Assembly: GCA_025765595.1 (NCBI GenBank)
Contig: JAIVFH010000118.1
Coordinates: 33,821-97,820, forward strand
Source of the DNA: Obelidium mucronatum
Lineage: Eukaryota; Chytridiomycota; Chytridiomycetes; Chytridiales; Chytriomycetaceae
Direction of reading: 5' to 3'
Length of the DNA stretch: 64,000 bases
Shown: one piece after another, positions 27,664-64,000 of the stretch
Layout: each line of letters starts with the position of its first letter
How positions within the stretch are numbered: the first letter of the stretch is position 1
Made by a program: the position numbers and the translations under genes
Notes under the pieces: generated by a model
Databases searched by the model: none
Told to the model about the DNA's origin: nothing
The model's input: the letters and a program-made list of their open reading frames with translations, nothing else

Positions 27664-27781
27664 CAAAAGTCACTTTCACTTGTCAAAATTTATTTCACAG
27701 CAAAAGAAAATCTCCAAAGAAAATCTGGGGTCAGATAGAACATGTAAGATGATCTATTCTGCTGCAGGAAAACACTGCAGG

Positions 27782-29391: not shown

Positions 29392-29436
<45 letters not shown>

Positions 29437-30400: not shown

Positions 30401-30589
30401 CTTTTTTGTTTGGTTGTCTTTTTTATTTATTGTTATTGTTTTGATTCAGACAATTTTTTTTTTTTTTTTTTACTTTCACTTTTTGTTTACAACACGACCC
30501 AAAAAAATAAAAACACAAAGGAAAAAAGAAAAAAAAAGACAAGTATAATAGTATTTCGAAGAGTTTTTTTTTTTTTTCTTCTTCTGTTT

Positions 30590-33734: not shown

Positions 33735-33917
33735 CGAGATTTTTTTTTTTTTTGGTTGTTTTTGGTTTCAGGTCACGAGGAACAATTGAAAATAACTTCC
33801 CCCCAAACAACACTTTTTTTTATTTGACACACACAAACAACAGGTTTTTTTTCCATGTCTTTCTGTTTTTTTTTTTTTTTTTTCCTTTTTTTCAATCTTT
33901 TTTTTTTTGGCGGTGTC

Positions 33918-38006: not shown

Positions 38007-38079
38007 AATTCTGTTTGTATACCAGTTAAAACTAGAATTATAACATCAGAAGAGGTTTCTATGCAGTTTGCACGCTGGG
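38007..38079. repeat. About 75-bp duplicated segment, copy 1
   Basis: The stretch beginning AATTCTGTTTGTATACCAG and ending GGGTTTTAT recurs at 41297-41374 with few differences. Copy 1 lies just upstream of the first F-box/ankyrin gene. It is probably part of a segmental duplication or of a mobile element's flank. Confidence 0.7.
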
Positions 38080-38278
38080 TTTTATTTTGATCGGAGCAAC
38101 TTCACTGGATAACACCAAGGATAACACAGGATTCCAATATCTCCCTTTGTTTGAACTACATCCCGTCCAAGAGAGCCCTCGCAATTCCCTCTCACGAAAA
38201 GAGCTGACTGACATTTTTCTAAAAGACGAAGCTATCTTGCTCTATCTTGTGCCAAATTGGGTGGAAGAAAAGTCAACG

Positions 38279-39247: not shown

Positions 39248-39437
39248 ACGACGGATTTCCAACTAAAATCAATTAAAAATCAATAAAAGCAATCTGTAGA
39301 TTTTACTACAACTGGTTTCAAAGCACAGGATTCCAATATCCCCCTTTGCTTGAACTACATCCCGTCCAACGCAATTCCCTCTCACGTAAAGAGCTGATTG
39401 ACATTTCTCTGAAAGACGAAGCGATCTTGTGCCAACG

Positions 39438-40409: not shown

Positions 40410-41350
40410 AATCAATCGTCAGATTTTATTCAATTCAGGAGGGAGCACACACTTGTTGAGACCACGGCAAATAAATATAAATTGGTAAAAGATTTGTTAA
40501 GTATGTACATCTTTAAATATTCCCTATTATTCCTCTGATCTGCCCCAAAAGTGGATAAGATATGCCAAAAAAGTCACTGCCACTGTCCCCTGTCAGCGTC
40601 TTCGGCGCGATCTCTCAGTATGGAATCAATGGTCAAAAGGTTATAGCTTTGGAGCACATGCTAAAGCTGGACAGCCCCGACAGGGCAAAGGTATTCAGCC
40701 CTCCCATCTCAATTAAAGCCAATGCCCCTCCTCATCGAGAATGCTGCACTCAGGTCACCCACATGTTTCAACTAAAATCGCGTTTCGCGCTGATCTTGCA
40801 GCTTCTCTACACCACACCTAACTGCTTCCTTTGAACGCCGTTAAATCAATAAAACCCGGACGGTTATTGACCAGACGATTCAATACGCCCTCTGTGATTG
40901 TGTGCCGCGTCTGACGGAGCACGTACATTCGTTGTTGGATGGCTGAATCTGCTATTCCGTCCAGTCTCCATCCAGTCATGAACTGACTCGCATTGGTGGC
41001 ATGTTTTTCTTTTTCTTCAGAAGTCACGTGATGTCAATCATCATTTGCAGGAATTAAGCCGGGAAGGACCCATTATTCTTCAGAATAAGGGTGTGATGCG
41101 GTGAAGTTGAAAAATCTCTGACTAGCTGAAATTGGGAGTAGCACATCAATGATGCTCTCTACAGCGCTTTATGCTATTTCTATTATAATGAAAATGGATA
41201 TGATATAGTTATGAAGGCACAGAAGTTCCTTCATTGTTCCCCAATCTCCCGCTTTGCTCCTGGATGTGACAAAAAAACAACTAGACTATAGGTTACAATT
41301 CTGTTTGTATACCAGTTAAATATAGAATTATAAGATCAGAAGAGGGCTCT
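40410..41350. other. Intergenic stretch without a supportable gene
   Basis: About 900 bp following F-box copy B. It holds only short frames with no recognisable protein: one of 90 residues at 40562 (+) and one of about 69 residues at 41027-40818 (-), beginning MTSEEKEKHATNASQF. The latter looks protein-like but matches nothing I know and may be a relic. Copy 2 of the 75-bp duplicated segment starts at 41297. Confidence 0.4.
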
Positions 41351-41374
41351 CTGCAGTTTGCACACCGGGTTTTA
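41297..41374. repeat. About 75-bp duplicated segment, copy 2
   Basis: The partner of 38007-38079 in the same orientation. It is followed by a short (GAG/GGA)n run at about 41404-41430. No F-box gene follows this copy; the degraded hAT transposase region begins instead, so the duplicated block was broken or truncated here. Confidence 0.7.
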
Positions 41375-42055
41375 TCACTCACTTCTCTGCAAAATTTATT
41401 TTGATGAGGAGGAGGAGGAGGAGGAGGAGCAAAAAATAAAGTTGTCCAACATCTACACGTTCCAAGGCATCATCGGCGCCTGTTTCTGCCGCTTCTGGGC
41501 GGCGAAACAATGTGTCGGAGGCTCCAGCCATATTGACTGTGTGTAAAAGGAAACATGCAGCTCAAATCGACGCAGATGTAACAGATTCAAAGTGAAGTGA
41601 AACTCTTACCCATCAAACACACTATCCAAGCGGTACGTTTGTCAATTACCCTAGAATCTGGCCAAGAGGGTTGTTGATCTTTTAAAACAGAAAGAGGTTT
41701 TCAATAAGTTATTCACTGTGACGACGACAACGCCAGCAACAATGGGACTATGATGAAGGAAGATCGCAACGGCTATTTTGAAAAGTCGTGGGGAAACTGC
41801 CAGTATTTGAGGGTCCGGTCTTGTTAAGCATGTGGAAGCAATGCATATTTGTTGCTGGTGCCATATTATTGACTTATCTGTGCAAGGTTGTTAAATATTT
41901 GATGCATTTTGATTTAACTTCAATTTCTTTAGCCTGCCTGGACAAATTTCGCAGTGACAACAGTGATTCCAGCAGAGCTCAGTATTGACAAAGCTGCGCA
42001 AGTTTATTGTTGCAGTGAGGGACTTTCCACAATGAGTTGAGAATCTCAGGAATGC

Positions 42056-43155
42056 ATTTGAACGTGTTCAAACTCAAAATCCAGGTCTCAAATTTTTAAC
42101 AGTCATTCTGGATGTGGTTACGCGCTGGTATTCAACATACAACATGATTGATTGTGCCTTATTCCTGAGAACTGCTATTGACTCATTGATGGATTCTGAT
42201 TCAGCGTTTGAGGCCTGCTCTCATTGACAGACTGGGATGAGCTGAAATGCCTCCACGAGTTTCTTGGAAAGTTTAAGTGGGTTTCAATCATGAATATGAA
42301 GAGCAAGTTTGCGACGTCATCAGATACAATTCCGTTGTACGAGATATGTTTTCATCATATTGACAAATGGATGAAAAGATTCACAACCTTGAACAGCTGT
42401 ATTCTGTGGCGTTTGCATCCTGTTTTGAGGCTGCAATCATGACGTGTGACTCTAAATTGGTGGCATACTGGGGAAAAGCATCAACTTCAGCTTCAATTGC
42501 AACTCTCCTGGACCCTCGCTACAACTACAAGTTCTTTGTACGATCTCGAATGGACTATTTCAAGGCTAATAACGTCCACGCAGACTTGGACAAAGTCTCG
42601 AAACGGTTGAAAGCAAAGACTCTTATTGATGGAGAGTTTTTGGATAAAGCCAAGGCAATCTGGAAGTCTGAGTGTGCTTCCAAACTTTAAGTTTTTCATT
42701 CCACATCAGGGAATAAAGTCACTGTCAATTCTGTTGGTGGTAGCTCTTCAAACTACTGTCAGCACGCCGTTTCACTGAACAGAAAACGCCGGTATCTTAA
42801 CTCTGATGCTTCTAGTTCCAGTGAAGATGAATTGGCTGATGAATTGGAGAAGTATTTGCTGCTTCCACAGGAGAACGACAATACAGACCCATTGAAGTGG
42901 TGGGAGGCCCAACGAACAAACTACCCAAACCTGTACAAGATGGCATTGGATTATTTAATGGTTCCAGCAAGCTCTGTTCCATCAGAGCGGTTGTTTTCAG
43001 AGGCTGGATTAATTCTTACTGTCCAGCGCTCTCAAATGACCTCGTCAAATGCACAAGCATTAATATGCTTACACAATTGGTACACTTGTGGAATTGTAGA
43101 GTTTGAATTGAATGCACAAGCCAAAGTTGCCGTTAGTCGTTATAAAAACAAATAA
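42056..43155 (+). pseudogene. Decayed hAT-superfamily transposase
   Basis: Coding similarity runs through several frames. LDVVTRWYSTYNMIDCALFL (about 42110-42170) is followed by an in-frame stop near 42225. LHEFLGKFKWVSIMNMKSKF comes next, then a frame change near 42370, LDPRYNYKFF and a stop near 42690. The C-terminal hAT dimerisation domain is still open (42832-43155): DPLKWWEAQRTNYPNLYKMA and VPASSVPSERLFSEAGLIL. The SVPSERLFS motif and the WW pair are diagnostic of hAT transposases. It has at least one stop and two frame breaks, so it is inactive. Terminal inverted repeats were not found. Confidence 0.85.
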
Positions 43156-43172
43156 TTGTGAGTCGTAGCATC

Positions 43173-43224
43173 CATATACAGAACATATAAATATCTACCA
43201 TATACAGAGCATATAAATATCTAT
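43173..43224. repeat. Two 26-bp direct repeats after the hAT remnant
   Basis: Two adjacent copies, 43173-43198 and 43199-43224, of CATATACAGANCATATAAAT followed by ATCTAY. They differ at two positions and lie just past the hAT stop codon. Confidence 0.85.
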
Positions 43225-43227
43225 AAA

Positions 43228-43331
43228 ATTTTTTTGGGACCAGGTGCCAGGTCAGAAACAACGGAACCTGGTGAAATCTCCACCAGGTCAACCTGGTCTA
43301 TTTCCAACCTGGCACCAGGTTCAAACCAGGA
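43228..43331. repeat. Cluster of ACCTGG/CCAGGT motifs forming imperfect inverted repeats
   Basis: Eight or so ACCTGG or CCAGGT hexamers in about 100 bp, in both orientations. CCAGGTGCCAGGT near 43240 pairs with ACCTGGCACCAGGTT near 43306. It could be a subterminal transposase-binding region of a transposon, or a structured element. Several frames are interrupted, so it is not coding. Confidence 0.6.
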
Positions 43332-43382
43332 AGATGCACTATTCAAATAAAATATTCAATAATAACAATAAATATTGAATTT

Positions 43383-43454
43383 GATTGCAAACTAATAAAC
43401 TAATGGAAGAAATCCTGTGATTGCAAACTAATAAACTAATAGAAGAATTCCTGA
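43383..43454. repeat. Two 36-bp direct repeats
   Basis: Two tandem copies of a 36-bp unit starting GATTGCAAACTAATAAACTA, at 43383-43418 and 43419-43454, with two or three differences. It is AT-rich and non-coding, between the hAT and DDE transposase remnants. Confidence 0.85.
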
Positions 43455-43554
43455 TGCTACGGAAATCAAAGGGAATTAAATTAATGTCAATAGAAGTGAA
43501 TAGTAACCCAAATTTATTTAAATTACACCAGAAGAACAACTAAAAGATGAGTCT

Positions 43555-44205
43555 CTAAGTAATGTCAAAGAGGGGCTCTCTACGGAGTTTTACGTTAGTA
43601 ATCTGAGCCACTGCTGTGAAAATAAGGTTAATCCGTTCTCTGCGACCACGGAATAAGCCAGCCAACACACGAAAGTCCTTCATTCTTTTATTGACAGTCT
43701 CATGGCGAGACCCCAACAGATTCCAGTTTTTATTGTGTTTAATAATGTCTGGTGATGAACCCTTTAATTTAGTAATCACGCGGACATCTCCCACATAACC
43801 CCTGTCAGCAGCCACCTGCTTGTCCTCTTCAAGATCCAGAAGCACTGTTTTTTGAACCTGATCCAGATCATTGTGGAGGCCGCAGGGAGTTCCGCCACCA
43901 ATGAAGACTATCCTTGATGTTCCAATTGCAGTTGCAACTTGGAACCGGTAGCCAGCATGTTTGAACTTGTGGCTGAACAAGCCGGTATCAAGGGGTCTGG
44001 ACTCCGGTACAGGAATGTCCACCCCATCACCATACATTGATGGTGCAAGAATATCCCAGTTGACCCAGCGGTCTTCAAAGCAAATCTAAATAAATAAGAT
44101 TATTCAATGTTGACTAATGAAAAATTTTGGAGGAAAATTTGGTCACACCTGATCCATACTTGCCAAAATTGTGAGAACTGCATTTGACACCCCTATGGAC
44201 CACAT
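43555..44205 (-). mobile_element. DDE transposase domain (IS5/Harbinger-like, DDE_Tnp_4 type), truncated
   Basis: Two exons, 44205-44149 and 44085-43555, with matching phase, give about 195 residues. MWSIGVSNAVLTILASMDQ joins ICFEDRWVNWDILAPS. The catalytic core follows: GDGVDIPVPESRPLDTGLFS and HKFKHAGYRFQVATAIG, then PCGLHNDLDQ, AADRGYVGD and the helix SRHETVNKRMKDFRVLAGLF, which carries the likely catalytic Glu. This arrangement is seen in IS5/PIF-Harbinger-related eukaryotic transposases. The usual N-terminal DNA-binding part is missing, so it is probably a truncated copy, although the remaining frame is intact. Confidence 0.7.
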
Positions 44206-44844
44206 TCAAATCAAATCTACAAGTACATCTATCCAAGTCAGAACTGCGTTATTGCAGATGCAAGATGAGCCAATGCATTGAGTTAAACATGAACCGTAAC
44301 AATCAGCCGCCCTATGATATGCGAGATTTGCTAACACACACCTGAGCTTACAAATTAGAGGACCTGAATTAGTCACCTGAGGTCACTACTGCACTCTCGC
44401 AGTGTGAAACAACAAAGACAGGATTCTCTTACTGTAGCAGAAGTGCTTTCCAGTCATTGGCAACCTTAGCTTGATCCATCACTCTTGCATTGTGAAGCAG
44501 ACATCTTGATCCAGCACTCTCGCATTGCGAAGCAGAAAATGCAATCAAACTCTAGACAAAGAACGTGAATAAAGGCATTTGCTTGCGACGTATTCCATCA
44601 GAAATACTTTCAACTACTCGGGTTGCATCTGAGACGATAACTTCTGTACAGTTACAAGAACGCGACACAGTTGACGTGCTTATGATATGCCCAAAAAACT
44701 TTACGTGACCAACCGTTACCCACTACGAATAAAAAGAACAAGATTGAATTGAAATCATGTCATAAATCTCATTTTTTTTTAATCTGTGTAAAGAGAGAGT
44801 TATCTCTAAACTCTGCATTTTATTATGTAATATTTGATGAAAAA
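44206..44844. other. Intergenic, no gene seen
   Basis: About 640 bp between the DDE remnant and F-box copy C. It has no open frame of note. A short direct duplication is visible near 44470-44530, where GATCCA(T/G)CACTCT(T/C)GCATTG is followed by GAAGCAGA in both copies. Promoter elements were not recognised. Confidence 0.4.
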
Positions 44845-45819
44845 ATGACAGACATTCTTTCCTTCGACATCCTTGAACACATCCTGGTCCACCTTCCCAT
44901 CGATGCCAGCCTAACTGCGACAGCACTGGCCTCCAAACAAATGCTTGCCCCGTTTCTCTTGACCAGCGTTGCATTTGCCAGACGCCACGTAAGGTTGCAA
45001 CATCAACAATCACACCTTGGTTTCTGGAAGTTCCTGGAGACAGCCAACCTACAAGTTGGAAACTGGCCAAACCTGCCTGTTTGCTACAGGATTGCCATCT
45101 ACCGGGAGGTTTTGCAAGAACCTGCCTCGAGTAGTGAGTCAGACGAAGCGAGACCTCGAAATTGGCGCATACGCGATCCTCTTCTTGCCCACAAGATCAG
45201 TAAATATTTGATCAACGACTCCAGCTTGGTTGTTACCTGCAATGAGAATCGTTCCATTGTGTATGGGACTGCGTCAAACATGGTTGGTTTTGTGCGGAAA
45301 TGTCTTGCTGTTGCTGCTGTAGATCCATGCGTTTACGACCACTACTGCATAAAAGCGTCAGCTCAATGCGGTTTTATGGAGATATTCAAACTCCTCATAG
45401 CAGACCCTCGTGTGGATCCCAATGTGGGTTTGAAGGAGACTAACGGAAGCGAAGCAATTCCAATCATCGGAGCTGCAGATTCGGGGCACACTGAAATCGT
45501 AAAGATCCTACTGTCAGATCCACGTGTAGACCCTAGAATCAATAACGGATTTGCTCTGTGGTTGGCATGTCGAAAAGGCCATGTCGAAATTGTCCGTCTG
45601 TTTTTGGAGGATGGGAGAGTTGACCCGACCAGCAGGCGTCAAAACGTCTGCTGCCTTGCCATAGCTGCGCGAACCGGGAATCTTACTTTGGTGAACGATC
45701 TCATGGAGTGTCCTCGCGTTATCAAGAAAGTAGACTTGGCTGCTGCTGCTCAAGAAGCAATTTCTCACAATCACTTCAAGATTGCGAGGTTCATTTTAAG
45801 CCACCCACTACTGGATTAA
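44845..45819 (+). CDS. F-box-like / ankyrin protein, dispersed copy C
   Basis: A single exon starting MTDILSFDILEHILVHLPID. It is almost identical to copies A and B along its whole length, ending ARFILSHPLLD. Upstream sequence differs from copies A and B, so the duplication border lies close to the ATG. It is separated from A and B by about 4.4 kb containing transposon remnants, which suggests those elements took part in the rearrangement. Function as in copy A, by inference. Confidence 0.7.
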   Translation: MTDILSFDILEHILVHLPIDASLTATALASKQMLAPFLLTSVAFARRHVRLQHQQSHLGFWKFLETANLQVGNWPNLPVCYRIAIYREVLQEPASSSESDEARPRNWRIRDPLLAHKISKYLINDSSLVVTCNENRSIVYGTASNMVGFVRKCLAVAAVDPCVYDHYCIKASAQCGFMEIFKLLIADPRVDPNVGLKETNGSEAIPIIGAADSGHTEIVKILLSDPRVDPRINNGFALWLACRKGHVEIVRLFLEDGRVDPTSRRQNVCCLAIAARTGNLTLVNDLMECPRVIKKVDLAAAAQEAISHNHFKIARFILSHPLLD

Positions 45820-48542: not shown

Positions 48543-48691
48543 AACCGCTTTATACCATAACGACGAATTTTTGCACACATGTTATTATATATAGTCGTCG
48601 ATAAAATAAAAATCCGAGTCAATAATAATGATAATGAGAATAATACATTTTTACTCATTTCTTTATTTTTCAAAAAAAAAAAAACTCAAAT

Positions 48692-51600
48692 ATGGCGACC
48701 ACTGCCGATGAAGAATTGCTCCAAGAGATCAAGAAAGTGTATACACACATTGAACGCAATGAATACAAAGGCGGCGCTGATGGGAAGATTAAAACGGAAG
48801 TAATGCCATGCGCGTGCTCATACCAGCCTGGTATGTTGGAGGGAGTTTTTTTTGGGTGTTGGGAGAGCACTAAAACGAACCACCTTTGGCAGGTGATGAT
48901 CCCGAAACGGCCTGTGGCGATGCATCAGACTGTATCAATCGGTATTCTATATTGCGTTAGAGAGGGTGGAAGGGAGGGGCGTGTTGCTCCAGTGTATTTG
49001 CTCTTCAATGCTTATGTGCCCGTTTTTTTTAGAGCGCTGTTTCTTGAATGTTCGGCAGATGACTGTCCATGTGGATACAATTGTATGAATAGGAGGTGTG
49101 TTATTGGATGCTCTTTGGACGGGAGGGATAGGGGACGCTGACTGACTGTGTTGTTTTTTCTGTGCCTGGCGGGTTGAATTTTAGGTTTTACAACAAGCAG
49201 TACGGCCCCATCAAAGTCATCAAGACAGAGTTGAAGGGCTATGGATTAAAAGCGACAAAGGCGATGAAGAAGTATGTGCTTTTGTCCCACCGCCCTCGCA
49301 CCTCCCTTTGGCCCACCCCCCAAATACAACTGCGGATATCTGCTCAAATTCAAACATCCACTAACGGCCATTTTGCAAACATCGCCTTCGCTTTCAATTT
49401 CCATTCTGTGCGTCAAATAGAGGACAATTCGTAATAGAATATTGTGGGGAGGTTCTATCGCAATCAATGTTCCTCAAACGTGTACGGGATTACAGCGAGT
49501 CTGGAGCAAAACATTTCTACTTTATGAGCATCAAAAGCGATGAGGTGTGACTTATTTATTTTTCCTTCGTTTTGTTTTCTACGTGCACCAATTATTGAAC
49601 TGGTTATTGTATTTTTTTTTACGTAGGTGATTGATGCTTACAAAAAAGGAAATCACGCACGTTTCATGAATCACAGTTGTGTTCCCAATTGTGAACTTCA
49701 GAAATGGGTTGTTGGGAATCAAATTCGGATGGGGTTTTTCACCGTCGCAGATGTAGAAGCGGGGGAAGAATTGACATTTGATTATAAATTCGAACGATAC
49801 GGGTGAGCAGGCATTATTTTTTTTTTATCGTTCGTTTCAGGCGGTGTTTGGCTGATTGGTTTTTTTTTTGGTGGATGATTTAGAGCGGAGCCTCAAATAT
49901 GTTATTGTGGGCATTCTACCTGTAAAGGAATTATTGGGGGACAGCAGAAGACAGTCATCAATATAGAAGGCGGAGGTTTGTTTTCCTCGTTCGGTTGTAC
50001 CAACGTCTGGGTCTTAATTGGCTGTTTGATCTCCAGATGATGATGGCGATGAAATTGACGAAGAAGAAGAAAATCTCACTGCCAAACCTAGACGAGCAAA
50101 GAGTGGATCAGATGACGAGGACTTTGATGGAGGCTACCGAGTAAGCTCTTTCGATGGCAGAAAGGGCAACTCTAAATTTTCCTTGTTTGCTATTTTCAGT
50201 ATGATGAGCGAGGACTGCAAACTGTAGAAGCTGTCAAGTCATTTGTTAAATTAATGCTGTATTCCACAGCCAAACCAACTAAGTTAATTCGTCTGCTTCA
50301 GAAACTTGAGGTTTGTTCTTTTTTTTTCGGTGGAAATTTAAGAGTGGAGTCTCTAACAGTAATGCAAATGAAAACAGCTTACTCAAAATCCGGCTATACA
50401 GCGAAAATTTCTTCAGTATCACGGGCTCCCCGTTTTGAAGTCCACATTAGCTCATCATTGTAAATCTAATCCATCTATTTGTTATCAAGTTAGTGTTTGT
50501 CCCATGTCATTATTGTATGGAAGATTTTTCTCAACCATCACGGAAAACTCTTAGACTTTGCGCATTCTTAAGAATTTACCCCCGGTATCAAGAAACTCCA
50601 TTGTTGACAGTGGGCTTGAGACTATTGTAAAAAAATTGGCGGATCCCGAATGCTCGCCTCCGTCCGTGACAGAGAGTGCTGAAGAGGTTATTGATTTGTG
50701 GATCTCTTTGAAGTATTGATCGATTGTTTACTTATTCCTCTGTGATGATTTTAGCTGCTCGAAATATGGTCGCAGTTTACAACAGTGTACAGAATTCCAA
50801 AGCGGGCTCCAGTAAGTCAAAACAGAAGTTGTTGCCAAATGGACCCTAACGCTAACGAAAAAACACTTAAGCTGCCCCCGTCAGAGTCGGCCGGTACCGA
50901 TCAAGGCAACAATGGGAACAACGCGACCAATTCATCTGCATTAAAACGATCGCCAGACAACCAAACACCATCATCTGAACCCGCCAGCAATCCTTTCATA
51001 TTTTCTGCAGCTGATCTTTTCAACAAACGACCCAAATTTGATCCTCAACGAACAAACTCGAACCCATTAAGTGAATTTGACTCGCGTACGAATTTTAATC
51101 CGGCTCTTCCCCTTCGACCTACTGGCCTTCAAAGAGTCAATAGTGGATCTTCCGTTGATCCCCAGGCGTTTTCGCGCCGCGATAACTCCCCTAGGCCGTT
51201 TGGATTTGATTCATTGAATGGCGGCGGTGGTGCTGGTGGTGGGATGGGACAAGTTCGCGTGGAGTCTGTGATGGACACCCTTCCGAAAGGGTGGAGTTCA
51301 GCAAAGAATGAAGAAGGGAGGCTATACTATTACTGTGTCGCTACAAGTGAAAGTCGATGGGATTTCCCAAGGGACATTGTTAGTGAGAGTAGTCCTGCTG
51401 AAGGGACGAGTATTGGGAGTGGCGTCAGTGGGTCAGGAGGGGTTGCTGTTGTTCCTGAAGTGCGAGTCAAGAGCAGTATGATTGAAGGATTGGATGAGGC
51501 TGCTATTGATTTGATTGTGCAAAGAGCAAATGCCGGGAGTTTGAGGAGTCCCATTGATGAAGAGTCTTCTTTGAAGGCTTTGAGAGGAATGGTAACGAGT

Positions 51601-52036
51601 GTAGTGTGGTTTCGTTTGTGTGTGTATGATGGTTTCTGATGGTTTTTTCTTTGTTTAAATCAGATTTCAGAGTTGGTTGTCAAGACTTTGAGTAGGCACA
51701 AGGAAACTTTGGGTAGTGATACTTTCAAAAATGTTGCGCGTAAAGTAAGTTTGTGGTTGTTGTGTTGTTGTTTGCATTTGTCGGTTGTGGAACTGATTGT
51801 TTTTTAAAGTGTACACACAACATTCTGCAACGAGAGATCAGACATAAGACGCAAGGAAACCATGCAAATGGGTTGAGTGATGAGACCAAAGTTTTAATGA
51901 AGAAGGCTGCACATGTGAGCATTTTTTCTTTCTCCTTTTTCATGTGTGCTTTGTTTTCTCATTCCAAAAAAAAAAAATTCAGAAATATCTCAAATCTTTC
52001 ATGGAAGCAGCCAAGGGAGGAACTAAAAAGAAATGA
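48692..52036 (+). CDS. SET2: SET2-type histone H3 lysine-36 methyltransferase
   Basis: A many-exon gene with the full fungal Set2 layout. The Cys-rich AWS pre-SET region (LECSADDCPCGYNCMNRR) comes first. The SET domain follows: YGLKATKAMK, FVIEYCGEVLSQSMF, RFMNHSCVPNCELQKW with the NHSC core, and EELTFDYKFERYG. The post-SET is ICYCGHSTCKGIIGG. After an acidic linker and a long Ser/Asn-rich region, a WW domain appears (LPKGWSSAKNEEGRLYYYC; SESRWDFP). The C-terminal helices (SELVVKTLSRHKETLGSDTF, LSDETKVLMKKAAH, YLKSFMEAAKGGTKKK) form an SRI domain that binds the phosphorylated RNA polymerase II tail. It writes H3K36 methylation during elongation. Confidence 0.93.
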
Positions 52037-52960: not shown

Positions 52961-53062
52961 TAATTATTGTTAATTTCAAAAAGAAAGACTCAAATAAAAA
53001 ATTGTCAAACCATGACAATTACCAACACCTGCTCAAGGTCTTCACACACTCTAGTGTACAAA

Positions 53063-53585
53063 ATGCGCGTTGTAGCTATCTATCAACAGCTTCTGGCTTC
53101 AGCCTCTACCAACAGTCTAACGACACGTGGTATTGCCGCCAAAGTGGCAGCTGATCACCATTTGTCCAGGTCTACTCTCTCAAAGTGGATCAGATCAATC
53201 CAACTAATCCAGGCTGATGTTAAAGCTAGAGGAAAAGGAGCTGTTCATTTAGGATGGGGAAAACGTATGCCTGGTGGTGGCATAAACCCACTAACCCAAA
53301 GGAAAGCACTAATCCAACAACCAAAGCCATTGTCGCAGACACTAATAGATAGAGATGGAATTGTCTCAACAGCGGTCTTTTCTCCGACCATGCTTCAATG
53401 CCGATTCCCTTTCGAAGAAAGAGAACTGTTTTCAATTGTTGCAGATCAAAGAAATCACGGGCTTACAGTTTCCTTCAGTGACCTGAGGGAGTGGATGTAT
53501 TCTCTTGTTGTTACTAATCACCCAATAGGTGCCAGATTTAAAGCGTCAAGCAGTTGGGTGCATGCGAGTCTGTCAAGTTTTTTTT
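53063..53585 (+). pseudogene. Truncated pogo/CENP-B-type transposase, DNA-binding half
   Basis: The open frame begins MRVVAIYQQLLASASTNSL and has two helix-turn-helix units. The first is psq-like (TRGIAAKVAADHHLSRSTLS). The second is a CENP-B-type HTH (FEERELFSIVADQRNHGLTV, then RFKASSSWVHASL). In pogo-like transposases the RFKAS-xxW motif is followed by the DDE catalytic domain. Here the similarity stops exactly where a poly-T and hairpin sequence begins (53580), and no DDE domain follows. This is consistent with interruption by the element to its right, or with a domesticated short protein. Confidence 0.6.
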
Positions 53586-53589
53586 TGTC

Positions 53590-53624
53590 AATAAATCTCA
53601 TGTGTGCTACACATGATTTTTATT
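53590..53624. repeat. Hairpin palindrome, left copy
   Basis: Sixteen-base arms around GCT. The left arm is AATAAATCTCATGTGT and the right arm ACACATGATTTTTATT, with two mismatches. It is the inverted-orientation relative of the perfect palindrome at 61265-61299; the loops are GCT and AGC. Both copies sit about 25 bp before an A-rich leader and an ATG, and both are bordered by TTGTC and a T run on their outer side. Confidence 0.8.
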
Positions 53625-53649
53625 ATTAACCAACCCAAAAAATCAAAAA

Positions 53650-56428
53650 ATGAACAACCACGCCCAAATCATGCAAAACCGCAAAGAGGCCCTTGCAAAC
53701 AGTAAACGAATCCATGCCCTGGCCCTTATCAATCCATCAGATGCCGGGTCAACAGCAGCAGCTGCATTGGGGCCATTGAAAACTACTGCGAGTGGAAGTA
53801 AGTCCAGCATTCAAAACTCTGTCCAATCCAAGTATAGACTGACAACACACCTCTAGTTGCAACCAGAGAACCAACAGGCTTATCGATAGTAGGAAGGGCC
53901 GGTCTCCTATCAAGTGGTGAGAGAATGCATTCTATTGCCAAGCACTTGATAAAAATAAACCATCAACAGAGAACATACCCAATCTTTCCATTCCCAGGCC
54001 AAGGATTGTCGAAATATTGAGAGGTGAAATCCTTTTTATCACCCAGTCCATGACTAAACAACTAACTAAACCACTCTTTTCTAGAAACAACTCCAAATAC
54101 CCAAAATGATTCCACCGATCCTTCCTCATCAAGTGAACATCTTTTGGAAGAACCATTGATGGAACTTCCTCTGGATCAAACGCGTATTGATCAAAATGCA
54201 GAGGTAAATATTCTGACTTCATCAAAACTGTTTTAATCAAATCACAAAGAACCCCTTTTGCGATGATGCGGAAATTGCTCAGCCGTGCTTATTGGCAGCC
54301 AGACAATATGAGCGCAGCTATAAAATCAAAACGCAAGAAGCTAAAGAGGAGCAAGTAAAACTGGCCTTCTTATGCAGCTATGCTTGGTGAGTTCTTTGTC
54401 TCAATTGCTTGAAGTGATATTCTAATTGAATGATATTCTAATTGAACTGCGCCCATAAGTCTTGTGTCGGATCAATACGATTCTGAAACTCGCGCTACCA
54501 CGGATACCAAGTATATTGCATTCCAAAAAATGTGTCGAAAAGCTGTCAAGCTCACTGGTCAGCCTGTTAACTCCAACTCCGAGGCTAAATTCCGTCAGGT
54601 TGTTACAGCTGGAGTAGCTATTGCAAAGACCCGCTGGTTTGCAACAAACTACTTGGATGGAAAGCAAGTGAAGGAAATGGAGCCGGCTGATTTCCCCTCA
54701 CTCTTGCTTAAAGCATTCAAGGACTTTATGCCTAAACCGTCAATACATCCAGTGGCGGAAATATCCTCAGAGCTTAAAGCTGCGTGTGTACTGGATGCTG
54801 TAACTACCACAAGCCTGTGTAGGCTAATTGAAGTTAACAAACGCGGTATGTTTTAGGGTTACTCTTTTTTCCTTCAGTTTGTTGATGGTGTGAAAACATT
54901 CAGGCAGCAAAAAGGGATCAACTTCTGTTCTAGAGGAAACCATCACAGATGGCGCCGAAGAGGAGGGGAATGATAACAATCAAGGCAGGTATTTCCGTGA
55001 TGCAGAGGATTACTACTGTCCCGAGCCTGAAGATGGTGAAATTCTATGGCCTGTAACACGCGATCGCTCCCCCACTCCTCCTCCCCCAACACCGGATCAA
55101 CCAACTTCAGCTGACATTAATCCAATCCCATCTGTTCAACAAAACCCGCCATCAGCAACTTCACCCCCACCATCCACTTCACCCTTACCAGCAACTTCTC
55201 CTCCACAATCTGCTCCTGCCCCCCCATCACCACCACCACCAGCACCATCACCACCACCACCTCCAACAGCAACCTCACCATCAGCAGTATCCCCACCATC
55301 AACAGCACCTCCACAGTCAAACAATCCCGCTTCCACTGACTCAGCTCCTCCCACTGAAACTGCAACTGCTGAATCTCCCAAGAATGACACAACAAAAACT
55401 GCCAAGGATGTCCCTCCTGCTGCCGCTCCATCCACCAAGCCAAAACCAGCCAGAGGCACCAAGAGGCATAACTATTCACCATCTCCCAGAGTTAGAAAAT
55501 CCCGCACCCGTCCCAGAGAAATAAAAGTCCCCCAACAAGCAGTCAAGCCTGACCCGGATCTATTGATTGCCAAGAATAAGCGCTTCTTTATTGATGCGTT
55601 TGAAGGAACTTTCGACAGCAATGAAGACGACGATGACTGTGTTATTATTGAACACACAGTTGAGCCTGTCTTTGTCAAGAGCGAATTCTATGACGCGGCA
55701 TCTATGTTTCTAAAGTATGGGCACCTATCGATGGAAGAGTTCAGACGGTATGCCGCAGATGCTGGATTTGCTAAACAGCTTGGCCAACTGTATGCAAACG
55801 TTTTCAAAACAGGTTTGATTTACTTATTGTATTATGTGTTTCTGATTTGGTTTTAGCCAAACCCCTTTCCAAGGAGTTTGTATCTGATTCATCTGATCAT
55901 GAGGAGGATAACAATTCAGATGAGGGAAGCATTGTGGTTGAGATGGATGAACCAGAGGATTGTGCTACAGCAGCAGAAGCCAACTTGGAGGTCACGGAAG
56001 CCATTAGAGAGCAGGAAGAAGATGACCCAAATGCTCCTGAAGATACCACCATGGCAGAAGCGGAATCAGTGGAAGAACTGGAATCAGTGGATGGTTTTGA
56101 AAACTTGTTGGGGCAAGTGGTTGTTGTGGATGGGGATTCTGGTCCTGGCACCGGGAGTGATGGTGCTCCTGAAGAATCAGTAGCTGCAAACAACAATGAG
56201 GAGGCAGGTTTGGACATTAGCCAACACTTGGTGGGGGGAGGGATACAGTTGGGAGGTTTGGGTGAGTTAGGAACTTTGGCTGGAAAAGGAGTTGAACCAC
56301 AGGCCAAACAGGCAGGGGTGGAAAATCCTGGTGAAAAGTTGTTGGAAAGTGATGACTACTTTGATTGGGACGCCAGCTCACCCCACCTCCCGTCAACAGC
56401 ACCACAGCCCAACAGTGGTGAGGAGTAA
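53650..56428 (+). CDS. Large, mostly disordered nuclear-type protein; unknown, element gene 1
   Basis: One spliced model of roughly 770 residues in about nine exons with agreeing phases. The N-terminus is Ala/Ser/Asn-rich. A helical core follows (LAARQYERSYKIKTQEAKEE; MCRKAVKLTGQPVNSNSEAK; AIAKTRWFATNYLDGKQVKE). A very Pro/Ser/Thr-rich region precedes a basic block that looks like an NLS or AT-hook (KPARGTKRHNYSPSPRVRKS). The C-terminal 190 residues are strongly acidic (SDSSDHEEDNNSDEGSIVV). No family was recognised. Acidic plus basic-disordered layout suggests a chromatin or transcription factor; that is inference. It is transcribed towards gene 2 and lies directly after the left hairpin. 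Confidence 0.6.
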
Positions 56429-56599
56429 AAGATGATGCACTGTTTTGGGATCTCTTGCCACCAAGTATACCTTTGTTTATTCACACGTATTGCATTAGTT
56501 TAGATGTTTGATTATTACTAGTTTGATTATTTTTAGCATGTATGAAATAAATGTATTTTTTATTTTTAATAATTTAAAAATTTAATCTAGTTCAATTTA

Positions 56600-58950
56600 A
56601 TGAACCCAATCAGTGCTGGCCCACCAGAGAGAAGACCACTCATTGAGTGGGGGACCTTACATGATCCTGCTGCAGTGCGGGCTACACTTCAAGGACATTG
56701 CGAAAAGGGAGGGATCCAAGGAGCAGCCCTCCCAACCCAGTTCTATGTGATTGCCACTCTGTTTGAGCTACCCAAGGATTGGACCCCCGCCATCTGCGTT
56801 ACATTCAAAGAGAGACTAGATGCCATTCTGACTCACAGGACGCAGTTGCGGAAAAATCCAGTCCAAAACCACTGGACAAAGCATGACTGGGTCTGTATCA
56901 TCGATCACAACACATACTCTGTCGAAATGTACATGTGGCCTGTCCTGAATCAATGGACAGTTGACAGTACCATGAAATTGGCCACAGACTGTATTCATGC
57001 CGCTTTTGATGAGGTGTCTGCCACATACCCACCCTTTCCAAGTGAGTCCTCATTTCTGTACTTACTCTTTTGGCTTTAGAATCCTTAAAATGCGGATAAT
57101 TTTACAGCTATTCTTGACTATTCAAACACCAATGAGCTATTATCGCGTCTAAAGCACCATGGAGTCTGTCATGTCATGCATCCTCTGGAAATGGAAGAGA
57201 CCAACATTGTGACACAACTTCTTGCACAAATGGCGGAACGTGTCTTTTGGCCAGAGACCCGTGCAAGGTCAGAATGGCTACAAGAATATCATCGTGCTGG
57301 CAAAAAATTCATGATCTTGAATGGCGTCGAATTACCACTTGGAGTTGAACGGATTTCTGGAAATAATTTCCAATACCATCTCGAAACTTGGTCTGATATC
57401 GAGGAGTGGGCTGCTGATAATTCAGAGAAATTGCAGTTGGGTCCTGGAAAGTTTTCAATCCTCAAGTCTGCCTTAAAGAAAATGAAGTTGAATAGACAAA
57501 ACGCCTACACCCAGTGCATGAGAGAGTTTTTTGGAATCCAACTGGTTGAATCTGATATCAAGAGCACTGGAGTAGCACTGCTGATGAGTATTCCCAAACT
57601 CACGTTTCAGCAACTGGACCATTTTGATGCCCAGGTCATGGGCGTTTATTCAACATTGATGAGCATTGGGAGCACCACAAAAACGACTCTGTTTCATCAA
57701 ACAGACAAATTCATGGAGGAATACCGTCGCAGGTGAATTTGTTTTTTTGGCTTGATTTCTTTCAGATTGTTCTAATTAGTGATTTTACAATAATCAGATC
57801 TCAAAAAATTGGAGAAAGAGATGCAGCTATACTCCAAAGTGCCAGTGGAATGCCTCTTGTTGAGGACGACCTACGCTATGTTGAGGCAAATTATTCACGC
57901 CTGCTTACAGATTCACCACCACAGCAGTGGAGCGCAAGGACTTACATTCCCGGCTCCGAAGTTTCCTTCCTAGGTCTAGCTGCCCATTGTGAAGTGGGAA
58001 ATGAGGCTGACATCCCAAAGTTGGCTGACAACTGTTGGTGCAAGAGACAATCTGTCAAGCCCCAGTATCAAAGCAAGTCGCCTGTTGGCATCTTATTTTG
58101 CAAATGCCAACTGTTTCCCCCCGAATCAAAACCACGCACCGTGACCACCTATGTAGAAGGAGGTAAACCGCAATACAAGTTTTTTGACCAACTGTGTGCC
58201 GACCCTTATGATGATCGCACAATTACATCATATGGGCGGGTCCAAAGTAGCTCAGCAGCTGCCTACATCAAAGGTTTCCGCCATTCTGTCCACTTTGTTC
58301 AACTTGCAAGAAACGTGCTACGTGAGGGTTAGTTGTATCAATTTCCCCTCTACCTGAAAGTAACTGCTCTTTTCTAGGGCATACTATGCTGGGGTTTGTT
58401 GAAAGTGACCGTGAAGTTTTTAACTACTTGCACCGTTATATGCGAGCTGCAAGACTTGTTGATTTGTTTGGTGGTGACAGTTGTTCTGTAGTTGCTGATA
58501 ATTTGGAAGACATTGTGGACATGCCTTTGGAGAGTTGGGAGGAATATAACATGAGAGTAATTGGTGACTCTACTGCAGTGAAGGAAACCCCCACTGTGCT
58601 TGCCGAGTGGAACAATCCCCGGGGTTTCAAAGGCACTCCCATTGATCTTTATCTGGCGGAGTGGGATTCCAGTAAATTTGCCGATTCTGGTTCAGTGAGT
58701 GAGATGGGCTTGTTGGATGGGTAAATTAGTTTTTAGAGTAAGTAAGAATAAAGAGTACTTTCAAAGTTGTGCATTTTGTTTTAATTGATTCCTTCACAGT
58801 GTACACAAGCCCCTCTCGGCCTGGAAGAAAAATCCCATAATGAATGTCAAAGCTGTATTAAAAACCAAGTTAGATATTCCTGAAAGTTTCAGGCTTCCTG
58901 GAGTGGCCGTTGGTTTTGTTGCAGTTGATTCCTTCACAGTTTATTCTTGA
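56600..58950 (+). CDS. Large globular protein of unknown family, element gene 2
   Basis: About 700 residues over five exons: 56600-57042, about 57108-57732, about 57798-58328, about 58378-58720 and about 58800-58950. It begins MNPISAGPPERRPLIEWGTL. Notable parts are HWTKHDWVCIIDHNTYSVEM, a long helical middle (AILKSALKKMKLN-type region near 57460) and a Cys-containing segment (NCWCKRQSV ... GILFCKCQLFPP). It ends VGFVAVDSFTVYS. It is well folded by composition, with few low-complexity parts. I could not see a DDE triad, tyrosine-recombinase, helicase or polymerase motif. It converges with the H3-tail gene, with 46 bp between the stops. Confidence 0.6.
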
Positions 58951-58996
58951 GTCTGTAACCAAAAAAAAAAGAGCTGTAAGCACTTCCCCCTCCCCA

Positions 58997-60083
58997 TCAA
59001 TCATCCATCTTTGGATCATATGGTGGGTCCTCAATAACCCGCACCGCATCCTTCTTGATTTCATCAAGCTCCAACCCAACACTATGAACCAGCTCCTCAA
59101 ACTCCTCACCCAATCCCTTTACCAACTCCCTTTCATTCATGTTGAGTTTGCGACATATATTCAAGCCTGGAGGGATATCATTCACAATGACCCTTTCAAA
59201 GCGACGAGCTTGGCAACGTGACAAGCCACCATTGGGTGGAAGACCCAAATAAAACAAAAGGAATGCGATGCAGCGGTAAGCACAATCGTCAGATGTTGTC
59301 TGTGTTCCATTGACCACGTACAAGCTTCGCATTCGACGAGACGTCAACTTGCTCAACAAGTTTACAGCAGGCAAAGACCACAGATCCCCTGTGTAGTGTG
59401 GTTGAAAAAGAATGACGGAGGTGGCTTCAACAACAACAATGGTGGAATGAGCTGGAATGGTCTTTGTCTGGCTACAGTTTTTTTTAACAGCTTGTAGTCC
59501 CCACCAACAAAAAATCCACAACTTACTTTTTCATTGTGTCATAAACAACCTGCACAGCGCACACTCCAAGAGTTTCCACTAGAGCTTCCATTTCCCTGGC
59601 AACAGCTGCACTAGGGTACACTGCTGCATCTCCATAGTCTGGCAGATCCACATATTGTTTCATTTGTTTCATGGTTGTGAAACAAATGGACTTCTCCATA
59701 AGGTATGGCAGTAAGCGAATAGGGATTCTTGATCTAAATTCGGAAACAGGGAGGCCCGTCTTGATTGGATCAAGAAGTAGGAGTGGGGCGTTCTGGCGCA
59801 ACTCATTCATGGAGAAGGGGGGGAGAGATGGGAGGTTGTCGGGGAGGCCAGATTGCGGTAGGTTGAAGAGCGTGTGCAATCTGTTGAGAAGGTCTTTGGC
59901 AGCCTGGAGATGGATGCTGTGGGGATTGCTGCTTGTTTCAACAATGTGTCTTATCGCTTCACCCCGCTCTCCAAAGACTGCTGCATCTGCTGGCGCACCT
60001 TTCTTGTTTGCTTGGGTTCCAAGCTGCTTGCGTGGCGCCTTTCCTCCAGTGGATTTACGAGCATTCTGCTTTGTTCTTGCCAT
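58997..60083 (-). CDS. Histone H3-tail-mimic protein with possible divergent histone fold, element gene 3
   Basis: Two exons, 60083-59527 and 59471-58997 (1,032 nt, 343 residues, phases agree). The N-terminus [19 protein letters not shown] is nearly histone H3 residues 1-18, followed by [13 protein letters not shown]. In H3 numbering R2, T3, K4, R8, K9, S10, T11, K14, R17, K18 and K27 are kept. T6 is Asn, K23 is Gln, R26 is Lys, S28 is Gly, and K36/K37 are Phe/Gly. After residue 32 the similarity to H3 fades. [32 protein letters not shown] and [14 protein letters not shown] have the spacing of histone-fold helices 1 and 2 and the loop before helix 3. A 130-residue C-terminal extension follows ([19 protein letters not shown] near its end). 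Canonical H3 is about 136 residues, so this is not an ordinary variant. Confidence 0.75.
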
Positions 60084-60136
60084 TTTGATTATGAAAAATA
60101 AAATAAATATTATTTCTATTCACCCCAAACAACCAC

Positions 60137-61118
60137 ACTATTCACCCCCAACAACCCGCGGGGGCACCAAATGAGCTGCAATTTTAAACATGAGCTAGTA
60201 GTAATATATACTAACCAAAAACACGCTCAAAACTGCGATAGGTAGCGTGCGAGATTCTGGTGTGTTGGGTAAATGTCAGTATCGCGAGCGCCCTTTGGCG
60301 CTGCACTTTGCAATTAATATGCGGAGCAGTTTAATATAGTTACTAACCATGGTTGAAAGGGCATGGCGGGGCGGCTTGTAGTTCTTGAGCCACAGATGTG
60401 AAGATGCCTGGTCACCAACACTATTCACCCCCAACAACCCGCGGGGGCACCAAATGAGCTGCAATTTTAAACATGAGCTAGTAGTAATATATACTAACCA
60501 AAAACACGCTCAAAACTGCGATAGGTAGCGTGCGAGATTCTGGTGTGTTGGGTAAATGTCAGTATCGCGAGCGCCCTTTGGCGCTGCACTTTGCAATTAA
60601 TATGCGGAGCAGTTTAATATAGTTACTAACCATGGTTGAAAGGGCATGGCGGGGCGGCTTGTAGTTCTTGAGCCACAGATGTGAAGATGCCTGGTCACCA
60701 ACACTATTCACCCCCAACAACCCGCGGGGGCACCAAATGAGCTGCAATTTTAAACATGAGCTAGTAGTAATATATACTAACCAAAAACACGCTCAAAACT
60801 GCGATAGGTAGCGTGCGAGATTCTGGTGTGTTGGGTAAATGTCAGTATCGCGAGCGCCCTTTGGCGCTGCACTTTGCAATTAATATGCGGAGCAGTTTAA
60901 TATAGTTACTAACCATGGTTGAAAGGGCATGGCGGGGCGGCTTGTAGTTCTTGAGCCACAGATGTGAAGATGCCTGGTCACCAACACTATTCACCCCCAA
61001 CAACCCGCGGGGGCACCAAATGAGCTGCAATTTTAAACATGAGCTAGTAGTAATATATACTAACCAAAAACACGCTCAAAACTGCGATAGGTAGCGTGCG
61101 AGATTCTGGTGTGTTGGG
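60137..61118. repeat. Tandem array of 283-bp units (3.5 copies)
   Basis: Units start at 60137, 60420, 60703 and 60986 (ACTATTCACCCCCAACAACC), the fourth being cut at about 61118. I saw no differences between copies. Each unit contains CAACCCGCGGGGGC and GCGAGCGCCCTTTGGCGC, which are short GC-rich inverted repeats. A partial 20-bp copy of the unit start precedes the array (about 60117). The array lies directly upstream of the H3-tail gene, so it may contain its promoter. The 62-residue frame in each unit is probably incidental. Confidence 0.95.
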
Positions 61119-61264
61119 GAAACCAACACCAGCCCACAACTCCTCCAATTGGGCCCCAATTTGTGAATTGAAAGAGAAATAATCTCCATTTAATGTAATA
61201 AGAATAATGTATATTTATTGTAACCACATTCAAAAGTGATTGGGAAATAGCAATGTTGCGCATT

Positions 61265-61299
61265 AATAAATCTCATGTGTAGCACACATGAGATTTATT
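61265..61299. repeat. Perfect hairpin palindrome, right copy
   Basis: Two perfect 16-base arms around AGC: AATAAATCTCATGTGT and ACACATGAGATTTATT. It is the inverted relative of the palindrome at 53590-53624. An A-rich leader and an ATG (61323) follow, opening a frame of only 47 codons (MTTPSNQPPTQDQHQHCWHW). Confidence 0.9.
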
Positions 61300-62996
61300 G
61301 ACAACCAAAAAAAAACTCAAAAATGACCACACCAAGCAACCAACCACCAACACAAGATCAACACCAGCACTGCTGGCACTGGACCGCTCCCTGCAATGTG
61401 GCTGATTCAACCAACCAAGTGGTTTCGGAGCCTATGATCCTGGGGCTCTGCACTGGCAACTGTTGACAAACAGCCTGGTTTGACAGGCCTCAGTACTAGC
61501 CACCCACCTGCACCCTCTGCTCTCTTTGGTATGTGGCATAATTTTATAAGCACAATGGCCTGCTCCAGCACCAGTACTAATGTTTGTTTATACCACTAGT
61601 CTGCTGCTTGGCACCTGACTTCAAAACTAAAGACCCATTGCGAAAACGCGCTCTGATTAGCCTAAAACCGAGTCTTTTAAAGGTAAAGAGTGCAGGGTTT
61701 TATTTTATTTGATGGGGCAATCTCCAAAAGTGCTGACTTTAAGTTAGACAGTTTACAACACTCATGATGAATCAACAACTGCATCAGAAACGCGAAAAAT
61801 ACCAAACAACAACGCTGTCCTTTTGTCAAGGCTTTCATTAAGACTGGAATCCAAGGTCCATTATGGCTTCACTACCATTCTCATAGTTGAATTGTGCATC
61901 TGGATTTGAAACCACAAACACAACATTCTCACACAGAACCATTGAGGCCTTTTTTAATTCAAGGTATAAATAACTAAATTTTTATTGAATATTGTGCAAT
62001 ATTAACACCTTCAAGTAGGCTGTTTGACTCTTGTTTACCTAAACTGTCCATCTGGTTTCTTTGGTGAGCAACCAAGATTCTGGAGTCGCGTTGGTAAACC
62101 TGGGGAGGGATGGGGATTGTAACTCTTGAGTCCACCAGCGCCCTTGTCACGCTGACCTTGAAGTTGGGGACACTAGCATTGGCAGTTGTTGCGATTTATC
62201 ACGCTGCCTATGCAAACCAGTTTGTTTGGCTGGTGGTGTCTCTGACTTCTATGGCCATATTGTGACTATAATCCCTGGATTGCCTACGCTCTGAAACTGA
62301 GTTTTTGACTCTGTTTCCAAAGTTTGTTCTTTTGAATGAATTTATTCCTCACACCTCCATTTCCATCTCCCTCTCTCCTATATATGGGCACTCGATATAA
62401 GCCAAGGACACCAGCAAATGCAGGTGTTGTGATTTTCACACACTGCGTGGGCAACCAGTTTATCAAGAATGATTGTGGCTGGTGGTGTCTTCTTTTGGCT
62501 TCTATTAAGTTTTTTGGATTGGTCCTGGAGTTTTGGATCCCTAAGCTCCTGTATTGTGGCCAGATTTTATTCATGGTAAAGCCATTTTTTTTTAGTTTTG
62601 TTTTTAAATCTAAGGTGTTATTAAATCTTCCAATTTACAATAGGCTGTTTTACTGTGTTTACCAAAACTGTTGGCTCTGCTATTCATTGTTGGTCCATCC
62701 TTGTGGGTATGAGGCAGACAGGGTAGCAGAGTTGTGTTGGTCTGTCTGGGGGAGGAGGGGGCTGTATTCTTTGAGCCTGCCTACGCCTTTGCCAAGCCAG
62801 GCCCCGAAGCCTTGGACTCCAGGCAATGCAGATGTCCTCTCACGCGCTGCATTGACAACCAGTATGTTGAGAACTCTCACGGCTGGTGGTGTCTTTGTCT
62901 TTTGTTTGGTTTGGTGTGAATCCCTTGATTGGCTACACGTTTGAAACTTTCATGTTTCCATGATTTGTTCTCTTGAATGAATCTCTCCTTTCTCTA

Positions 62997-63042
<46 letters not shown>

Positions 63043-63250
63043 TCTCTCACTTGATTGGCTTTTAATCTCATTGGTTCCCACCTCATGTTACCAAGTGTCC
63101 CCAAACAGGGGCATGTAGGTTTAACTACTGCCATGTCTCTAATCAGAGTCATAGCGGGAGCAATGGGCTTTGTGGAGAACAATAAGGAGAAATTTTCTCC
63201 TTCATCAAAAATCCGTTGTCTTGAAAATGTGCCAAAAAAGTAGCTAAAAA
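61300..63250. other. Non-coding, degenerate repeat-rich stretch
   Basis: Nothing here supports a functional gene. A roughly 330-bp sequence starting TAGGCTGTTT occurs at about 62016-62340 and again at about 62641-62981. A shorter third copy lies at about 62400-62520 around GGCTGGTGGTGTCT. Translations of the copies resemble one another (GNQFIKNDCGWWCLL and DNQYVENSHGWWCLC) but have stops, so these are probably decayed element copies. A (TC)n microsatellite lies at 62999-63052. Confidence 0.6.
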
Positions 63251-63253
63251 ACT

Positions 63254-63857
63254 GTGACGCAAGACTATCACCCCACCCCTGAAATTGGAACACTTTCAAC
63301 AAGCATGCAGCGCCTCCATAGCAAGCCCAAGGCCAACCAAGTGAGTACTGGATCCTTGATTTTCTCTGTTATAGGCCTTGTGCACTCACTAACATTTGAT
63401 GCGCACCAACAGATGCCAGCCCCTTTGATGACAACCGCCACACTCCTTGCTTGCAAGATGATCAAGGATTGCAAACCATGGCACTTCTTGACTGTCTGTG
63501 GCCATTCAAGTGGGGTTGTTGCCAGACACCCTGCCCCTTGTCTCCAAAAACAAGGCTTACAACAACAAAGCTGAACAGGTCGATGCCAGCAATGCAACCG
63601 TTGCTTCAAGAACATGACACAGCATTTCTGTTCCTATGGTATGTGACCTGAATGTTTTGGTTTTGATTGGGTGTTTGTTTACACACACTCACACACACTT
63701 CAACATTTTCCAAAGTCCTCCTCCACCATCGAACAGGAAAAAGGTCTTGAGACATGCTGCTTGCATCAAGTCTAAAGTCCATGTCCAGCTTTTCAACGGG
63801 ACAACTCTGGCCCTGCAGGTGGGCCCTGGACTACTGTTGGTGATGCAAGACAAATGA
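63254..63857 (+). pseudogene. Possible decayed or unresolved spliced gene
   Basis: Several short open stretches separated by plausible GT-AG introns: a first frame at 63254 (MTQDYHPTPEIGTLSTSMQR), a middle frame near 63451-63650, and an end segment at about 63706-63857 (KVHVQLFNGTTLALQVGPGL). The frames could be joined in more than one way, and no family is apparent. It may be a gene remnant of the repeat region. Confidence 0.25.
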
Positions 63858-64000
63858 TTTATTGCAAGACTGGGGTGCCCACGAAACAAACATATTTATT
63901 ATATAAATCCAAAGTACTAAGAGACTGTTGTGTTGCTGTCAGGTACCTTTTTATTTTTTTTTGTATCTTTTACATTTTCCACAACAAGTGACCCTAACCC

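Follow-up and report, generated by a model that had tools for sequence, protein, structure and literature searches.

A histone H3-like tail on a transposon protein of the chytrid Obelidium mucronatum: a possible chromatin disguise

The tail gene and its product

A 64,000-nucleotide stretch of contig C118 (the window) in the assembly of Obelidium mucronatum, a chytrid of the Chytriomycetaceae, carries on its minus strand, at 60083-58997, a gene for a protein that begins like the tail of histone H3 and continues as something other than H3. This gene, hereafter the tail gene, is carried by a DNA transposon with terminal inverted repeats. Its two exons and single intron (59526-59472) give 343 residues in one open frame after splicing, as an earlier note on this DNA had proposed. 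Its features in the window are as follows.

58997..60083, minus strand: H3-tail/CE-peptidase-like gene (subgroup A); exon 1 60083-59527, exon 2 59471-58997; frame kept although intron length varies among copies
59994..60083, minus strand: H3-tail mimic, first 30 codons including Met, by sequence comparison
59472..59526, minus strand: intron of 55 nt, GTAAGT...TGTAG, at the same position in subgroups B and C
59447..59449, minus strand: invariant His194, CE-clan-like motif, from the A, B and C alignments
59300..59302, minus strand: invariant Gln243 (Q-x5-C), from the same alignments
59282..59284, minus strand: invariant Cys249, candidate nucleophile, in D-C-x-Y-x-C, from the same alignments

In the copy on contig C67 the intron measures 47 nt rather than 55 and the exons are still in frame. 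An in-frame stop lies upstream of the ATG, with 12 sense codons between them, and no stop separates the tail from the body, exon 1 running on from the one into the other.

All the H3 residues listed in the earlier note (R2, K4, R8, K9, S10, T11, K14, K18 and K27) are indeed kept, and over residues 1-31 the window tail departs from that of host H3 at T6N, A21G, K23Q, A25N, R26K and S28G. With the whole protein as query, phmmer matched H3 chains of the PDB over residues 1-37 (E=1.2e-8), and nine H3 genes of the Obelidium genome were matched over residues 1-36 (E=3.2e-7, 75% identity), so that chance resemblance is excluded. The likeness to H3 stops past about residue 30. The presence of an H3 tail on a non-H3 protein is therefore confirmed.

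A family with one junction and three subgroups

The full protein found 36 exon-level matches in its own genome, of which 10 are tails of H3-type genes (the nine at E=3.2e-7, plus one on C100). Near-identical copies of the window gene, forming subgroup A, lie on C118 itself, C149 and C67, with a further copy on C36 that contains stops. Subgroup B has copies on C54, C35 and C75 (B54, B35 and B75), and subgroup C has one on C35 and another on C53, in which the frame is disrupted as judged by eye. More pieces of the family occur on C14, C207, C392 and C36, and stops or disrupted frames mark copies on C36, C53, C207 and C392. Among public protein models, P0121 is identical letter for letter to the spliced B54 model, and P0122 is the subgroup C protein of C35.

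Sequences of all three subgroups, as well as P0121 and P0122, begin with MART, continuing as ARTKQ in A, ARTRQ in B and ARTPQ in C; all are H3-like and share one common junction. The residues A1, R2, T3, Q5, A7, S10, T11, G12, G13, P16 and L20 are common to the three tails. The subgroup C tail reads ARTPQTASRSTGGHAPKRDL, and B54 has T15. B tails are strongly basic beyond residue 20 (VARKRRRKPP), a long insert rich in Lys and acidic residues is found in subgroup C, and the spacing between tail and body varies in length, with about 120 extra residues in P0122. Tail identities are 53% for A-B54, 63% for A-B75, 48% for A with subgroup C of C35 and 62% for B75 with the latter; body identities are 31% for A-B54, 32% for A with subgroup C of C35 and 59% for B54 with the latter. 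Only in pairs that include A, then, does the identity of the tails clearly exceed that of the bodies. In the subgroup C protein (L044, C35:32585-34172), a second H3-like stretch, TGKGPRKKKGGKSAPGD, lies near residue 140, after the Lys-rich/acidic insert.

A public search with the full-length protein returned, among the best 120 of 2929 proteins, an Obelidium model first, the others covering 10-16% of the query and being mostly named H3 or histone-like. Searches with the body found 2 and 3 proteins, from Obelidium only, the second having scored the 7997 candidates that share most words, so that distant relatives may be missed. Two further stretches, C35:31758-31892 and C54:98890-99024, weakly resemble the peptidase part (43% identity, E 1e-4 to 4e-4). 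They lie several kb from the B tail genes, so that the domain may be present twice in B elements.

The body of the protein

The bodies of the three subgroups share a start, P-A/G-D-x-x-V-x-G, and their alignments contain an invariant His194, Gln243 and Cys249, that is, a His and a Q-x5-C. A single low-confidence structure model, the sole model compared, resembles CE-clan (Ulp1/adenain-type) cysteine peptidases, which suggests that the body is a CE-clan-like cysteine peptidase. The third catalytic residue of the clan is usually Asp, Glu or Asn; here a Gln stands in the F-Q-P-H stretch, and the third residue could not be placed.

As an alternative to a mimic, the earlier note had offered a very divergent histone-fold protein, and this part of its proposal was not supported. 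Pfam, with E up to 10, gave the body no histone-fold match, and its only matches to the window protein, PF15715 (residues 1-28, E=0.037) and PF18262 (0.043), are both below the cut-off. The tail-gene locus is absent from the 55 matches of PF00125 in the Obelidium genome. No histone fold appears in the best 50 rows of each structure list, which by itself excludes nothing. A virus or phage origin of the body was also considered and rejected: P0121 had no match in phage records, and of 111 pattern matches (A4) in viral contigs, 0 were confirmed.

The transposon

The following features describe the element in the window outside the tail gene.

52965..64000, no strand: transposon part inside the window, from left end to contig end; the contig stops within the element
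52965..53007, plus strand: left terminal inverted repeat, pairing with the right end at C35:53242 (81% over 43 columns)
52964..53626, plus strand: left-end open reading frame (ORF); its helix-turn-helix match, to PF03221 (Tc5 transposase DNA-binding), is weak and at E=0.026 below the cut-off
54446..58724, plus strand: chain of ORFs, function not assigned, convergent with the tail gene
60135..61122, no strand: tandem array of a 283-bp repeat (3.5 copies, 99% matches), directly upstream of the tail gene
62641..64000, no strand: segment 92% identical to the B-type element of C35, leading toward the ubiquitin-like/large ORF chain past the contig end

The ends of the element are recurrent. The last 40 bases at C35:53242 match window 52965-53007 inverted (81% over 43 columns, E=9e-5); 14 of the 44 other matches end at the same query base as this right boundary or at most 3 bases off, and 11 of 14 matches to the left end, the window included, begin within 5 bases of 52965. 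A copy with both ends spans 19,437 bp at C67:13046-32482, and the window is 97.7% identical to C67 over 52965-58051 and 97.8% over 58016-61583. The outermost dinucleotide is TA on both sides of the C67 copy, and TA also marks the left end in the window and the right end on C35; it could be part of the repeat. Together with near-identical copies and divergent relatives that have the same kind of N-terminus, these terminal inverted repeats bear out the view that the protein is the product of a selfish element. No DDE transposase domain, such as a Tc1/mariner-like element would have, was recognised in the ORFs scanned.

The 283-bp array likewise has 3.5 copies on C67 and more on C149, and 140-bp arrays flank the tail gene on C54 and C35. 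Beyond the tail gene lies a ubiquitin-like ORF (PF00240, E=1.5e-6 on C35), with the same stretch read on C67, and after it a long chain of ORFs that has matches on C35, C90, C67, C75, C54, C36 and C149. At the right end of the element on C35 (L061 3527-7348 and L062 1-4175, C35:44526-53174) the ubiquitin-like ORF is followed by this very long chain, which closes with a TnpB-like zinc ribbon. The likeness to TnpB is weak (PF07282 E=0.034, below cut-off; a PDB TnpB-like match, L79, E=1.0; RuvC motifs by eye), and PF07282 found nothing at 0.001 in the Obelidium genome; a Fanzor identity of the chain is a lead only.

In three B elements (C35, C54 and C75) an ORF with a SET domain adjoins the tail gene, with a stop inside the matched stretch on C54 and C75. 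It has matches elsewhere on C31, on C16 and twice on C41, and none on C118, C149, C67 or C36. Two other genes of C35, the CenH3-like one and that of subgroup C, were considered as parts of the B element, which was not supported, as no such ORF is seen in the C54 stretch inspected beside the SET gene.

Origin of the tail and selection

Codons of the tails were compared with those of host H3 genes against the codon usage of the three bodies. The test is small, takes codons to be independent of one another, and is quoted for the best of ten host sequences. The host H3 genes closest to tail A are L007 and L010, each of which agrees with it at 17 of 25 codons (8.1 expected; P about 1e-4 for either gene). 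For the remaining eight distinct host H3 sequences the count ranges from 8 to 16 (out of 25, or out of 21 with L014). The tails of B75, B54 and subgroup C of C35 show no codon excess, no host H3 reaching P<0.3 (top counts 9/24, 7/19 and 4/15), and B75 shares 10 of 17 codons with the subgroup C tail (5.3 expected, P=0.012). Because the excess with host H3 is found in A and not in B or C, tail A seems to postdate the split of A and B though the fusion point is identical, which would mean either two captures or gene conversion replacing an older tail. Near residue 27 the C36 copy has KAARK, nearer to H3; of 23 codons compared in this copy, 12 agree with L010 (P=0.037). By NG86, the silent divergence between tail A and L010 is 0.67.

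Between the A and B bodies the replacement divergence (dN) is 0.81, and NG86 gave no value for the silent divergence (dS). Only 3 to 5 nucleotide differences separate the coding sequences of the three A copies, too few to judge selection. Within subgroup B, dN and dS are 0.021 and 0.088 for B54-B75, 0.016 and 0.088 for B35-B75, and 0.0035 and 0.029 for B54-B35.

Neighbouring genes and other H3-like loci

A host gene at window 48644-51636 stops shortly before the left end of the transposon. It has AWS (PF17907, E=1.1e-4) and WW (PF00397, E=1.2e-4) matches, both slightly below cut-offs, and is possibly a SET2-type methyltransferase. Several adjacent Ste20/PAK-like kinase ORFs, named by eye from motifs, occupy both strands at 22260-36408, and 38036-45816 holds three near-identical long ORFs, F-box/ankyrin-like by eye, with repeat segments 91-96% identical at the DNA level. 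On C35, between one subgroup C and one subgroup B gene, lies a CenH3-like H3 gene (L009, C35:36141-36640; MARSKPAPKAQQSQ...), whose tail and core are in different frames. Elsewhere, L023 (C45:214152-214514) is a 297-residue open frame whose H3-like core is highly divergent and is followed by a long extension at the C-terminus.

Discussion

What is directly observed is a tail fused to the body, in several copies of a mobile element, together with the conserved core of the tail and the invariant His, Gln and Cys. From this we propose that a DNA transposon of Obelidium encodes a stolen H3 tail (about residues 1-30) on a CE-clan-like peptidase body that acts against chromatin silencing, a reading to which we give an even chance. 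The protein is probably a histone-mimic protease directed at chromatin in an anti-silencing role; we infer this function, and with it that the protein works in the nucleus, that its ART end is recognised, that it acts as a peptidase on a ubiquitin-like protein and that silencing is relieved. Removal of the initiator Met would leave a free A1-R2-T3 end that host enzymes or readers could take for H3. The tail would then carry the peptidase to chromatin silencing complexes, where it would strip SUMO, NEDD8 or ubiquitin, or where readers would become occupied, and either event would relieve silencing of the element. In subgroup B, the neighbouring SET protein may modify the B tail or host H3. It is tempting to speculate further that the family took a host H3 tail more than once, or renews it again and again through gene conversion. 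The tail would then be the docking tag of a weapon against heterochromatin that resembles a deSUMOylase or deubiquitinase, with one subgroup bringing its own SET-domain histone writer; we regard this fuller version as less likely than not.

Several findings weigh against this proposal. The tail's K4 and K9 are not conserved across subgroups, B having R4 and C having P4 and R9, and marks on these lysines therefore cannot be the shared function. Docking on host chromatin or its disturbance, as the earlier note envisaged, remains a plausible possibility, but a docking that relies on marks at K4 and K9 is weakened. Nor is strict constraint on the whole tail evident, since the tails of B54 and B75 differ by 6 replacement and 0 silent codon changes, of which 5 fall past residue 20. 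The CE-clan assignment is not confirmed by sequence profiles: hhalign of the body to Ulp1 pieces was negative, a PDB sequence search with A4 and A5 gave no match, and PF02902 (peptidase C48) matched neither the window protein nor P0121 or P0122, the locus being absent from its 23 matches in the Obelidium genome.

The loss of K4 and K9 would be immaterial if the tail were a tag for nuclear import or DNA contact, a basic segment borrowed from H3 for importins without mimicry of the histone code. The highly basic B tails and the Lys- and acid-rich insert of subgroup C would suit such a tag, yet 10 of the 11 common residues are non-basic, R2 being the sole basic one, and a plain basic nuclear localisation signal need not retain them; we regard this explanation as somewhat unlikely. 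Less probable still is a built-in substrate or inhibitor, in which the peptidase has H3 tails or its own tail as its target, with the N-terminus serving as pseudo-substrate or propeptide. A histone-tail copy at the N-terminus of a peptidase-like body, joined by a stretch of variable length, would fit this. CE-clan enzymes, however, mostly cleave after the Gly-Gly of ubiquitin-like proteins, and the GG of STGGK is not C-terminal.

Perhaps the tail is instead a functionless captured H3 exon fragment, retained since the copies are young. The few differences among the A copies and the broken frames of four others are in keeping with this, but an H3-like N-terminus stands at the same junction in all subgroups while their bodies are 31-59% identical, and tail A is H3-like down to its codons whereas B and C are not; we think this improbable too. 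A gene-model artefact, with the ARTKQ stretch drawn from a normal H3 gene or another frame, can hardly be entertained. The public model of the C149 copy, P0001, does begin at Met69 and omits the tail (position 69 is Met in C149 and Leu in the window copy). However, the exon is continuous from tail into body, with neither stop nor frame break, and the tail is present in the public models of B and C, P0121 and P0122; the frame break that the earlier note had named as refuting its reading is contradicted, and an ARTKQ exon belonging to a normal H3 is very unlikely.

Both halves of the proposal have precedents. The ARSK of influenza H3N2 NS1 and the ARKS of SARS-CoV-2 ORF8 are H3-tail mimics, and there, as in Obelidium, a parasite protein that is no histone bears a piece of H3 tail and may be recognised through it by chromatin proteins of the host (PMC10208167). 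The viral mimics are four-residue motifs, C-terminal in NS1 (PMC10208167), whereas the Obelidium tail is N-terminal and about 20 to 30 residues long; it also sits on a peptidase-like protein of a transposon, and in subgroup A matches host H3 to codon level. Histones of viruses (bracovirus H4, giant-virus H3, doublets) are likewise histone sequences borne by parasites, and capture from the host has been argued for bracovirus H4 and several single viral H3s (PMC9145170), but these have histone folds and the Obelidium protein only the tail.

For the body, Kaonashi/KIU genes of plants also bring an Ulp1-type domain onto a transposon, and KIU of the VANDAL (MULE) transposons has been described as a variant of the anti-silencing gene VANC (PMC6117577, PMC13317346). 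KIU/VANC transposons are a precedent for an Ulp1-type domain on a transposon's anti-silencing factor (PMC13317346). They are plant MULEs with a C48 domain, and the consulted parts of these papers mention no histone tail (PMC6117577, PMC13317346), whereas the Obelidium element is a terminal-inverted-repeat element with TA ends in a chytrid, its body unrecognised by Pfam. VANC targets frequently form tandem repeats (PMC5735166), to which the 283-bp and 140-bp arrays flanking the tail gene are a parallel, and no proof. Known CE-clan peptidases (NEDP1, Ulp1/SENP, adenain and pS273R of ASFV) share with the body the invariant His and Gln-x5-Cys and, going by the low-confidence model, the predicted order of the fold; the Obelidium body differs in having no sequence-profile support, no placed acid position and an added N-terminal H3 tail.

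Histone mimicry and transposon Ulp1 domains are known ideas, and we did not meet their combination in the literature searched: no H3-tail fusion in a transposon is reported in the titles or abstract openings among the open-licence matches listed. Our findings suggest that the element stole a chromatin disguise and may thereby dodge silencing. If so, nature would have run an experiment, in subgroups that differ at K4 and K9, on which residues of the H3 tail are needed for recognition, and the family would provide a concrete, testable protein for transposon counter-defence in early fungi, beside VANC/KIU of plants.
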